64,000 nt of DNA from Ruegeria lacuscaerulensis ITI-1157 (GTDB lineage: Bacteria; Pseudomonadota; Alphaproteobacteria; Rhodobacterales; Rhodobacteraceae). A program made the position numbers and the translations under genes. Location: the NCBI GenBank assembly GCA_000161775.1, contig GG704596.1, positions 1,398,422-1,462,421 on the forward strand. Direction: 5' to 3'. A model generated the notes under the pieces. It worked only from the letters and a program-made list of their open reading frames with translations, did not search any database and had not been told where the DNA came from. Shown piece by piece: positions 1,197 to 60,064 of the stretch (position 1 is its first letter; each line of letters begins with the position of its first letter).

Positions 1197-2287
1197 AGCA
1201 GATGGCCCGACTTGGCCGCCTTGGTCGCCAGATAGCCGCGATTATGCGCCGTTTCCCCGACCTTGAGCGGCACCCGTTCGGTAACGGCGATCCCGGTGCG
1301 CTCCATCATCGCGATCTTGGCGGGGTTGTTGGTCAGCAGCCGCACCGAACTGAAACCCAGTGACTTCAGGATGTCGGACCCGAGGCGGAAGTCGCGCTCG
1401 TCATCCTCGAACCCAAGCCGGTGGTTGGCCTCGACCGTGTCGAACCCCTGATCCTGCAGGAAATAGGCGCGCATCTTGTTGGCGAGGCCGATCCCGCGGC
1501 CCTCCTGGTTCAGGTACAGCAGAACGCCGTGGCCCTCGGCTCCCATCTGCGCCAGGGCGCCGCGCAGCTGCGGGCCGCAGTCGCATTTCAGGCTGCCCAT
1601 CAGGTCGCCGGTGAAACAGGCCGAATGCAGCCGCGCCAGAACCGGTTTCGAACGGTCCGGCCGACCGATTTCGATGGCATAGTGTTCTTCACCACCGTCC
1701 TCGGGGCGGAACACATGCAGCCGCCCGGCCTCGGAGACCTCCATCGGCAGGCGTGCCGCGACCACCTCGTGCAGGGGGCTGCGATCGGCCAGGTGCGGGG
1801 CGGCGCGGGCATGGTCGATGCAGGTCAGCCCATGGGACGCGGCAAAGGTGCGCCCGTCCTCGACCGGTACGACCACCGCCGCCGGCAGCAGGCGCGCGGT
1901 CTTGGCCAGGGCAATGGCGATTCGGTGCAGGTTGGTATTGCCGCTCCGCTGGGTCATCAGCGGGCCCTTCATCGGTGCGTCAAGATCGTCGGACGGGTCC
2001 GCCACGGCCTGCACCCATGCAAGGTCGGCATCGGCTGGTATGACGACCCGGGCCAGATCGCCGTCATAGGCGCGCGCCTTCAGAGTCTCGGCCCGTCGGT
2101 TGGTGATGGCCACCACAGGTTCACCGCCCAGACCGCGCAGATCAGACAGACGTTGTGGGGTCAGCGTCTCGGCCGCTACGGCGATGATGCCGGAATCGCC
2201 GTCATCAACCAGCACCACGGGAACACCCATCCGCAGATCCGCGCGTGCGCGGGCCAGCAATTCGGTGATGTCGGGAATGAGACTCAT
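1193..2287 (-). CDS. ribA: GTP cyclohydrolase II, riboflavin biosynthesis
   Basis: A 364-residue protein that opens the guanine ring of GTP in the first committed step of riboflavin synthesis. The catalytic domain fills the C-terminal half. The zinc cysteines are C224, C235 and C237 in SACFTGDLMGSLKCDC, and the GTP-binding NQEGRGIGLANKMRAY follows. The first ~170 residues are not the ordinary DHBP synthase of bifunctional RibBA proteins; they look like a diverged relative of unclear role. I chose the ATG at 2287, which opens the protein at MSLIPDITELL. The gene runs into the L,D-transpeptidase with an ATGA overlap. Confidence 0.9.
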   Translation of the reverse strand: MSLIPDITELLARARADLRMGVPVVLVDDGDSGIIAVAAETLTPQRLSDLRGLGGEPVVAITNRRAETLKARAYDGDLARVVIPADADLAWVQAVADPSDDLDAPMKGPLMTQRSGNTNLHRIAIALAKTARLLPAAVVVPVEDGRTFAASHGLTCIDHARAAPHLADRSPLHEVVAARLPMEVSEAGRLHVFRPEDGGEEHYAIEIGRPDRSKPVLARLHSACFTGDLMGSLKCDCGPQLRGALAQMGAEGHGVLLYLNQEGRGIGLANKMRAYFLQDQGFDTVEANHRLGFEDDERDFRLGSDILKSLGFSSVRLLTNNPAKIAMMERTGIAVTERVPLKVGETAHNRGYLATKAAKSGHLL

Positions 2288-3136: not shown

Positions 3137-3240
3137 CGATTGGTGGATTGATGTGGATCAAAGTGATACTCTGTAGACATCTTTAGGTTACTCTCAACCC
3201 GCGCATGTCCGGGTCATGACATGTACCTCCCTGTTGGACT

Positions 3241-3266
3241 GCCGGGCCTTTGGCCCGGCTTTTTTT
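3241..3266 (+). terminator. Rho-independent terminator
   Basis: GCCGGGCC and GGCCCGGC form an 8-base perfect stem around a three-base loop, followed by seven T residues. It lies about 100 bases after the response-regulator stop codon and before xthA, so it most likely ends the regulator transcript. Confidence 0.9.
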
Positions 3267-56986: not shown

Positions 56987-57140
56987 GTCTGCTCTGACGG
57001 ATTCGTACTGACGATGCAGGGTAGAGTTCCCGGTGCCCCGCGTCCACAGCGCCGGTGCAGGTTTTTCGCTTTGGCGGTGGCGCGGGTTGGGTCATACTGG
57101 CGGGATAGTTTCAGTCTTGCGATTTTGAAGGGTGATTTTG

Positions 57141-57644
57141 ATGCCCAATTTGGTTGTGCATGCGTTGCAGGTCGGGGGCGGAACCCTCGCTCTGACCTCG
57201 GTTCCGGGTGGCGGAGGTGACTATTCCGGGGATCTGGACCTGATCGCCGACTGGGCGCCGGGGCTGGTGATCTCGATGACGACCCTTGCCGAGCTGGTGG
57301 CCGTGGGTGCGGGAGACTTCGGGTCCGACATCCAGGGGCGCGCCAGCCGCTGGGCGCATTTGCCGGTTGATGATTTCTCGGCGCCGGGCGGGGACTTTGA
57401 CGAGCAATGGAAAGTGGTCAGCGCCACAGCCCGGCACGCACTGAGCGGCGGAGGGCGGGTTCTGGTGCATTGCCGCGGCGGCTGTGGCCGGTCCGGCATG
57501 GCCGTTCTGCGCCTGATGATCGAATGTCGAGAGCCGCCGGAGACCGCTCTCAAACGTCTGCGCGCCATCCGCCCTTGCGCCGTGGAGACCGAGGCGCAGA
57601 TGCTCTGGGCCGTTTCGCCGGCCCAGAGCCATATTGCCGACTGA
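57141..57644 (+). CDS. Cysteine-based protein tyrosine/dual-specificity phosphatase
   Basis: A 167-residue phosphatase-like protein. The P-loop VHCRGGCGRSGMAVLRL contains the HCxxGxxRSG signature, and the general-acid aspartate is probably in HLPVDDFSAPGGDF. Substrate unknown. I chose ATG 57141 because GAAGGG lies eight bases before; an upstream GTG is less likely. It is divergent from dnaX. Confidence 0.85.
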   Translation: MPNLVVHALQVGGGTLALTSVPGGGGDYSGDLDLIADWAPGLVISMTTLAELVAVGAGDFGSDIQGRASRWAHLPVDDFSAPGGDFDEQWKVVSATARHALSGGGRVLVHCRGGCGRSGMAVLRLMIECREPPETALKRLRAIRPCAVETEAQMLWAVSPAQSHIAD

Positions 57645-57646
57645 CG

Positions 57647-58054
57647 TCAGAAGGCCGCCGAAAGCGGATGGTCCACGGGGGCCGCCGGCGCAAGCGCGAC
57701 CGCCTGCAGCATCGCGCAGGGCGAGGTGTCCAGGCCGTGAGCAGGGCAGGCACCGGCCAGGTCATCGAACATCAGGTCTGCATAGGCACCCAAGCTTTCC
57801 GCATCGGCTTCGGGACGCGCGCCGCAAAACACGCGGATCAGATCGGCGCGCGCGTCAAAGCGGGCGATGCAGCCCGGACCGCAATGAGTCAGTTCGCTGC
57901 TGCCTTCCACCCGGAAATCGGGCGAGGTTGCCGGGCCGGCCGTTGTGACCGCCTGCGCGATCGACCGAGCCAGATGCGCCAGCCCCGGGCAGGTCTTGCC
58001 CGTGCGTTGGCAGACGGTTGCGGAAAATTCATGTGTGCTTGTCTTCCAGATCAT
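57647..58054 (-). CDS. Cysteine-rich protein under cobalamin control (DUF1636-like?)
   Basis: A 135-residue protein with cysteines in CQRTGKTCPG, HCGPGCIA, FCGARPE, GACPAHG and PCAM. The layout resembles the short DUF1636 metal-binding proteins found with cobalamin genes, but I am not certain. Its start at 58054 follows GGAGG by seven bases. It is the only gene between the cobalamin riboswitch and the phosphatase, so a role in cobalt or cobalamin handling is likely. No cobalamin biosynthesis or transport gene is in the window. Confidence 0.7.
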   Translation of the reverse strand: MIWKTSTHEFSATVCQRTGKTCPGLAHLARSIAQAVTTAGPATSPDFRVEGSSELTHCGPGCIARFDARADLIRVFCGARPEADAESLGAYADLMFDDLAGACPAHGLDTSPCAMLQAVALAPAAPVDHPLSAAF

Positions 58055-58157
58055 GTAGCGCCCTCCGCGCGCTGGGCGGGGCGGATCAGGACAGACAGCC
58101 GGCTTCCAAGCCAGACCCTGCCCGGACACCCCTTCCGAGTTTCGGTTTCACGTTTGA

Positions 58158-58342
58158 TGGCAGGTCTCCTGACTTGCGGGTCGTTGCTTTGCCGACCTTC
58201 CCAACCTTGCGGTCAGTGGCATCTCGGCATCGCTCTCCGCCTACAGTTGCGGGGGCAGTCCCGGCATTGGCCCGCTCCGGAGTTCCGGGTCGGACCGCAC
58301 CGTGTTCCCTTTTCATCCCGGCCATAGGCACGGGAACCATCA
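58158..58342 (-). ncRNA. Cobalamin (B12) riboswitch
   Basis: Read on the minus strand, the conserved blocks appear in order: GATGAAAAGGGAACACGGTG, GGGACTGCCCCCGCAACTGT, GATGCCACTG, GGGAAGG, and finally CAAGTCAGGAGACCTGCC, which closes the B12 box. All are the standard cobalamin aptamer elements. It lies 104 bases upstream of the cysteine-rich gene at 57,647-58,054 and on its strand, so it should turn that gene off when cobalamin is plentiful. Confidence 0.95.
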
Positions 58343-58384
58343 TCCAATCGCTAGCGGTGCGGCTCGGTTCGAGTCAAGCCGCAT

Positions 58385-59898: not shown

Positions 59899-59970
59899 CG
59901 GATGCTTTGCACCTTGCAGGCGCCTGTGGGGGAAGGATGGGAATGACCCGCCGACTACACGGGTTGAAGT

Positions 59971-60064
59971 GAGAGGTTGGACAGCGACCCAAGCGGGGCT
60001 CGTTGTGGCTGCTTCCTTCCGGACCTGACCAGGTTGGCGAGGCGCTTGCCCGCGCCAACCTCTC
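59971..60064 (-). ncRNA. ffs: Signal recognition particle RNA (4.5S)
   Basis: On the minus strand the sequence starts GAGAGGTTGG and ends CCAACCTCTC, so the ends pair. The apical domain AGGTCCGGAAGGAAGCAGCC is the universally conserved SRP Alu-less domain that binds Ffh. The size of about 94 bases is typical of the small bacterial form. The exact 5' and 3' ends are estimated from the closing helix. Confidence 0.95.

Follow-up and report, generated by a model that had tools for sequence, protein, structure and literature searches.

A cobalamin riboswitch and the small cysteine protein family it precedes in Ruegeria lacuscaerulensis: candidates for a part in corrinoid processing

Introduction

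In known cobalamin riboswitches, binding of B12 docks the loop L13 onto the loop L5 in a kissing interaction. A cobalamin riboswitch is reported for Ruegeria pomeroyi in PMC4809877. Among the proteins encountered behind these elements in the present work are members of DUF1636 (PF07845), a family mentioned in PMC12828279. No paper found in the open-licence literature gives DUF1636, COG5469, ORF378/9JN8 or DUF1289 a function in B12 metabolism.

The locus described here lies in a stretch of 64,000 nucleotides of Ruegeria lacuscaerulensis ITI-1157 (contig GG704596.1, positions 1,398,422 to 1,462,421), which is called the window. Its riboswitch is of a known kind, and the proteins of the clade to which its gene belongs, here named W, are unrecognised by Pfam and NCBIfam at their thresholds in the members scanned.

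The locus and its riboswitch

The cobalamin riboswitch aptamer (RF00174) occupies positions 58142-58356 of the minus strand. The cmscan match of 123.2 bits (E 1.9e-30; gathering score 31.5 bits) is strongly significant and full length, covering model positions 1-189 of 189. A preliminary description made from the letters of the DNA had called the aptamer complete and proposed this search; the aptamer is indeed complete, and it extends 14 nt past the end at 58342 given there. There is no visible difference between it and other RF00174 riboswitches; it is the target gene that is uncharacterised.

This gene (57647-58054, minus strand) encodes a protein of 135 aa with cysteines C15, C22, C58 and C62, invariant in the clade, as delimited from the open reading frame, alignments and a tree. 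The ATG lies 7 nt downstream of a GGAGG. An alternative GTG start further upstream would give a product of 160 aa; the ATG is favoured because homologues align from it. Downstream, after a gap of 2 nt, is a convergent phosphatase-like gene (57132-57644, plus strand) and then dnaX, named by reading. Upstream of the riboswitch are a TetR gene, a hydrolase-like gene (by reading) and an SRP RNA (59968-60064, minus strand), the last from an RNA family scan of the window. As the preliminary description had it, no gene for cobalamin synthesis or transport is found among these neighbours. Comparison with Ruegeria intermedia gives a dN of 0.113 and a dS of 0.433, with 15 changes at first, 14 at second and 37 at third codon positions, and on these figures the gene is judged to be under purifying selection.

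An SRP RNA upstream of the switch is seen in the window and at the loci L006, L015, L016, L099 and L146, most other loci having been scanned 1.5 kb out. The window also holds a SorX small RNA (RF02784) at 3196-3266 of the plus strand, with 79.8 bits.

Three RF00174 elements are present in the genome. The second heads cbtB-cbtA, and the third heads DUF1636-cobW-cobN-cobG-like-cobH, where the cobG-like gene encodes a half domain of nitrite/sulphite-reductase type and was taken for cobG by reading, and cobH is the precorrin-8X methylmutase gene. Genes for B12 synthesis are thus present in this organism, and for two of the three switches the target is a textbook one. A second DUF1636 gene of Pfam level (L007 4666-5007, plus strand, 62.7 bits) is convergent to cbtB-cbtA and has no riboswitch of its own within the stretch fetched.

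The W clade and its relation to DUF1636

When compared with Pfam, the window protein matches DUF1636 alone, at 14.4 bits (E 0.051) for a cut-off of 31.6, and it has no match in NCBIfam or the PDB. The pointer to DUF1636 in the preliminary description was thus a good one, the protein being a distant relative below the Pfam threshold. None of ten further W members passes the PF07845 gathering score either; the protein of L120 comes to 24.5 bits (E 3.7e-5) and that of L143 also remains below the cut-off.

The preliminary description had placed the protein in an uncharacterised step, either of cobalt or cobalamin handling or of a B12-replacing pathway. B12-independent isozymes form a known class among the targets of cobalamin riboswitches (PMC3766115), and a W protein could in principle be a substitute of this kind for a B12-dependent enzyme. 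Against this, the window protein has only 135 residues, no catalytic family was found at curated Pfam and NCBIfam thresholds in the W members scanned, and the DUF1636 relatives sit in B12 operons. A B12-independent substitute is accordingly very improbable, and the B12-replacing pathway found no support; the part of the claim that concerned cobalamin handling finds support in the gene neighbourhoods of other genomes.

W was sampled in several searches. A sequence search of 198 genomes of the family gave matches in 24, of which 13 belong to the W clade, 8 are of DUF1636 type, one is G118 and two were set aside. These two, G094 with a stop inside the match and G130 with a frame of 1063 aa, were dropped as chance matches, and neither locus has a riboswitch. 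G118 (L029) encodes a riboswitch-led protein of 93 aa with the W spacing C-x6-C and C-x3-C, and stands outside the tree described below. A W profile matched 66 of 394 genomes, with 20 assigned to W in 19 genera; several of the other matches were read and are DUF1636-type, the rest being unread. At the level of the class, 3 of 289 genomes matched: the window's own, G294 (also among the matches of the 394-genome search, and with a riboswitch at its W locus) and G540, from another alphaproteobacterial family. The W relatives L143 (of G540) and L146 (on a plasmid of Tritonibacter mobilis) lie outside the tree. The L143 protein (1501-1887, minus strand) weakly matches the C-terminal part of CobG, at 17.4 bits (E 0.0017) for a cut-off of 234.8.

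In a tree of 45 proteins the 21 W rows (15 core, 6 divergent) form one branch, at 100/100, apart from the 24 DUF1636 rows, with the bootstrap incompletely settled and two of the divergent W rows being long branches. Homology between W and DUF1636 in the cysteine region is indicated by hhalign (E 1e-5, probability 82, for the single pair compared), and the W profile recovers DUF1636 genes with E values down to 2.2e-21 (G035). Judged from sequence, W is distantly but truly related to DUF1636 and forms a separate branch. The two share, besides this distant homology, control by B12 riboswitches and the Shine-Dalgarno hairpin of the riboswitch-led genes. W differs from canonical DUF1636 in lacking the latter's C15 and C55, in having C22, and in scoring below the Pfam cut-off.

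Association with riboswitches is nearly complete. RF00174 lies directly upstream of 20 of the 21 W rows, which passes the check, proposed in the preliminary description, of whether homologues follow B12 riboswitches; the exception is L052/L031 of G040, with none within 1.5 kb. The element is also upstream of the W relatives L143 and L146 and of the G118 gene. The listed genomes have from one to eight RF00174 elements, mostly one to four. Because these are so few and 20 of 21 rows have one, the association is not attributable to chance, although the genera concerned are related. At L017 (G091), cobalamin riboswitches at 1252-1445 and 1949-2151 (minus strand) flank the W gene, the second heading ABC transporter genes (by reading). 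At L040, BtuF-like, permease and ATPase genes, also by reading, follow a second riboswitch.

The cysteine site

In W, C15, C22, C58 and C62 are invariant in both alignments made (14/14 and 15/15 rows). In 19 rows of canonical DUF1636 the invariant cysteines are C15, C18, C55 and C59, and C63 is almost invariant. The W cysteines are equivalents of only C18, C59 and C63, with C22 in addition.

A relation of DUF1636 to ferredoxins was proposed earlier, in PMC4520260. A DUF1636 profile gave eight PDB matches up to E 10. The best, 9jn8 (ORF378; E 1.4e-43), is the family's own structure, and all seven others are thioredoxin-like [2Fe-2S] ferredoxins, with E values of 0.028-1.3; a narrower profile returned a similar list. 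DUF1636, noted at L008 (6152-6532, minus strand), is thus a family with a structure in the PDB, 9jn8 'ORF378', for which the open-licence literature searched yielded no paper. In the alignments to the 24 kDa subunit, cysteines fall on the DUF1636 columns C15, C18, C55 and C59, and in the Aquifex ferredoxin (1f37/1m2a) the C18 column is not a cysteine. The cysteines of the 24 kDa subunit (NuoE) so aligned are presumably the ligands of its [2Fe-2S] cluster.

DUF1636 profiles thus match the thioredoxin-like [2Fe-2S] ferredoxins (NuoE 24 kDa, Aquifex 1f37/1m2a), if weakly. Of the four positions aligned with NuoE-type ligands, two persist in W, the equivalents of C18 and C59, and since only these two are kept the W metal site looks remodelled. 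With W in the profile, the ferredoxin signal in the PDB was lost: a mixed W/DUF1636 profile added only the RNA-polymerase M subunit (E 1.4), and a profile of W alone added ubiquilin (E 0.67). Two AlphaFold models (pLDDT 85.9 and 88.9) were compared with the PDB by Foldseek and VIA-align, and no row stands out; thioredoxin-like ferredoxins and 9jn8 are absent among the matches listed (50 each). The missing fold match is no evidence of a new fold. W may act like a relative of the [2Fe-2S] ferredoxins, and is not classed as one.

The leader as a switch

The elements of a conserved expression platform can be followed along the minus strand. Within the aptamer, the L5 loop region TGCCCCCGC (58249-58257) is, by its sequence, a possible kissing partner of L13; TGCCCCC is present in all 15 core leaders. 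An L13-type hairpin, CGGA-AGGGGTG-TCCG, follows at 58123-58137, and its GGGG could pair either with L5 or with a downstream C-rich strand. The modelled partner on that side is the segment CCGCCCCGCCC (58074-58084), which, once its pairing with L13 is blocked, may become available for pairing near the Shine-Dalgarno sequence. The last element is the hairpin GCGC-GGAGG-GCGC (58058-58070), identified by comparison of leaders, with the Shine-Dalgarno sequence in its loop.

All 15 core leaders are built in this way: an L13-like hairpin with GGGG, then a middle that varies, then a terminal hairpin with a GGAGG loop, which reads GCGC-GGAGG-GCGC in 14 of them. Riboswitch-led DUF1636 genes have the same Shine-Dalgarno hairpin in other letters, with compensatory changes. 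Its alignment comprised 34 sequences (8 distinct), taken from 15 core W leaders, 5 from divergent W genes, 13 of DUF1636 type and that of G118; two of 36 were excluded, L026 having no GGAGG site by pattern and L052 no assigned start. The covariation score was 0.42, where shuffles gave 0.18 and 1 of 500 came as high. Of the cells, 78.1% pair (6 of 500 shuffles as high). Less telling are the counts of pairs altered at both positions (49 of 500 shuffles) and of further pair types (112 of 500).

Folding calculations on the core leaders paired the L13 GGGG with the downstream strand in 15 of 15. When the GGGG was held unpaired, to mimic a kiss with L5, mean pairing of the Shine-Dalgarno sequence rose from 0.22 to 0.82, with a rise greater than 0.05 in 13 of 15 leaders. 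With the middle shuffled the change was 0.14 (sd 0.07), and none of 40 sets reached the observed 0.60. The model shows no switching for two leaders, L016 and L099, whose site is paired in both states, and L098 fits in part (0.59 to 0.79).

Folding therefore supports a translational OFF switch at the W leaders. In the model, without ligand, the G-run of L13 would pair with the downstream C-rich strand and so keep the Shine-Dalgarno sequence accessible. Once L13 is engaged, as we infer by L5 when the aptamer has bound B12, pairing would close the Shine-Dalgarno sequence and translation would stop.

Gene neighbourhoods and genome content

The W gene stands alone, as far as read, in 14 of the 15 core loci, and DnaX and phosphatase signatures lie beside it in 14 of 15, the exception being L120 of G350. 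The 'lone' protein of the preliminary description is therefore lone in the window and, as far as read, in most of the core; in several other W branches it is not. In G350 a BtuF-like Peripla_BP_2 gene (144.2 bits) begins 3 nt after W, and in G125 a BtuF-like protein 77% identical to it is encoded behind a riboswitch-led DUF1636 gene, so that either W or DUF1636 can take this position in one type of unit. Behind the W gene of G194 come DUF1289-DUF6925, ExbB and TonB genes, and FecCD, BtuF-like and ABC genes lie convergent to them. A DUF1289-DUF6925 gene likewise comes after the W relative of G540, with FecCD and CbiZ genes nearby. The DUF1289-DUF6925 fusion (L042 5297-6280 and L143 257-1159, both minus strand) is found behind riboswitch-led W genes in two families, and may be taken as another uncharacterised candidate for B12 uptake.

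Neighbours of this kind would suit a factor that regulates corrinoid transport or assists its assembly, for instance in the control of a TonB/ABC importer, and has no chemistry of its own. The small size of the protein and the ExbB, TonB, FecCD and BtuF-like genes of some branches agree with such a part, whereas no transporter gene adjoins W, as far as read, in 14 of 15 core loci and the four invariant cysteines suggest a metal site; this explanation is considered improbable. A pure uptake role is also weakened in the window organism itself, where no relative of either of two BtuF-like queries was found at the limits used; the genome has only one Peripla_BP_2 gene, and that without a riboswitch.

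The DUF1636 genes give a related picture. The riboswitch-led genes of L044, L048 and L051 each share 4 nt with an ABC ATPase gene (with Pfam names for L051 only). The ABC proteins of L051 (group I) score best against F420-0 transporter models, below the cut-offs, and since these are the best-scoring models it is the riboswitch that points to a corrinoid as the substrate. In G200 and G075 a W gene coexists with a riboswitch-led DUF1636-ABC operon (by reading), so neither simply takes the other's place.

CobK was used as the marker of B12 synthesis. CobN (PF02514) was rejected for this purpose, many of its matches appearing to resemble magnesium-chelatase subunits. A CobK match is present in 26 of the 28 genomes tested, including all 14 core W genomes tested. 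The two with no CobK match, G153 and G040, both have W genes. G153 is also absent from the 167 CobN-positive genomes, its W protein nests within the core of the W tree, and one of its riboswitches leads a receptor gene that matches TonB-B12 best (208 bits, below the cut-off). G040 is a weak case: the 1.5 kb scanned around its W gene hold no riboswitch, and a stop codon interrupts the matched stretch.

These observations bear on whether W serves metal rather than corrinoid. As a cobalt (or zinc/cobalt) metallochaperone or buffer under B12 shortage, W would act with CobW in supplying cobalt for corrin synthesis. The four invariant cysteines fit this, as do the DUF1636 gene of the same genome that heads the riboswitch-led cobW-cobN unit, the other convergent with cbtB-cbtA, and the CobK of the 14 core genomes. 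ZnuA-type metal ABC genes near W in two genera (L041 9332-10273, minus strand, in G186; L120 4626-5582, plus strand, in G350) fit a metal role as well as a corrinoid one. On the other side are the W genes of G153 and G040, with their missing CobK match, and the close functional neighbours of W, which are mostly corrinoid-type uptake and salvage genes. A metallochaperone is on this evidence unlikely, if still to be reckoned with.

The same corrinoid-type neighbours and the W copies in two genomes lacking a CobK match favour corrinoid uptake or processing over cobalt insertion alone; the presence of CobK in every core W genome tested speaks against it and keeps a biosynthetic or cobalt role in view. 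On balance, gene context favours the acquisition and processing of corrinoids, not corrin-ring synthesis alone, as the common denominator of W and its relatives.

A possible role for W

The reading to which we lean, with some reserve, is that the W gene belongs to the cobalamin regulon and is repressed by B12, and that its product is a cytosolic cysteine-ligated metalloprotein aiding the uptake or processing of corrinoids. The protein, in which no signal peptide was seen by reading, would be made when B12 is scarce, and may help corrinoids to be taken up or processed towards the active coenzyme.

What it would do there can be proposed tentatively. CobR-like reductases, according to the review PMC8123684, are possibly non-specific flavoenzymes. 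The foremost suggestion for W is that of a redox or metal-site partner in the reduction of corrinoid cobalt before adenosylation, a suggestion that is by itself less likely than not to be right. A fuller and similarly speculative picture is that W is an unrecognised B12-repressed corrinoid-processing family, with a metal site remade from that of a thioredoxin-like [2Fe-2S] ancestor. It might then be the missing reductant or ligand-removal partner that prepares corrinoids, imported or new, for adenosylation.

Significance

A family below the Pfam threshold can be placed in B12 metabolism by way of its RNA switch. As a protein encoded by a single riboswitch-controlled gene, W is a clean target for study. 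The reduction and trafficking of corrinoids are incompletely assigned, and it is on this gap that W may bear.
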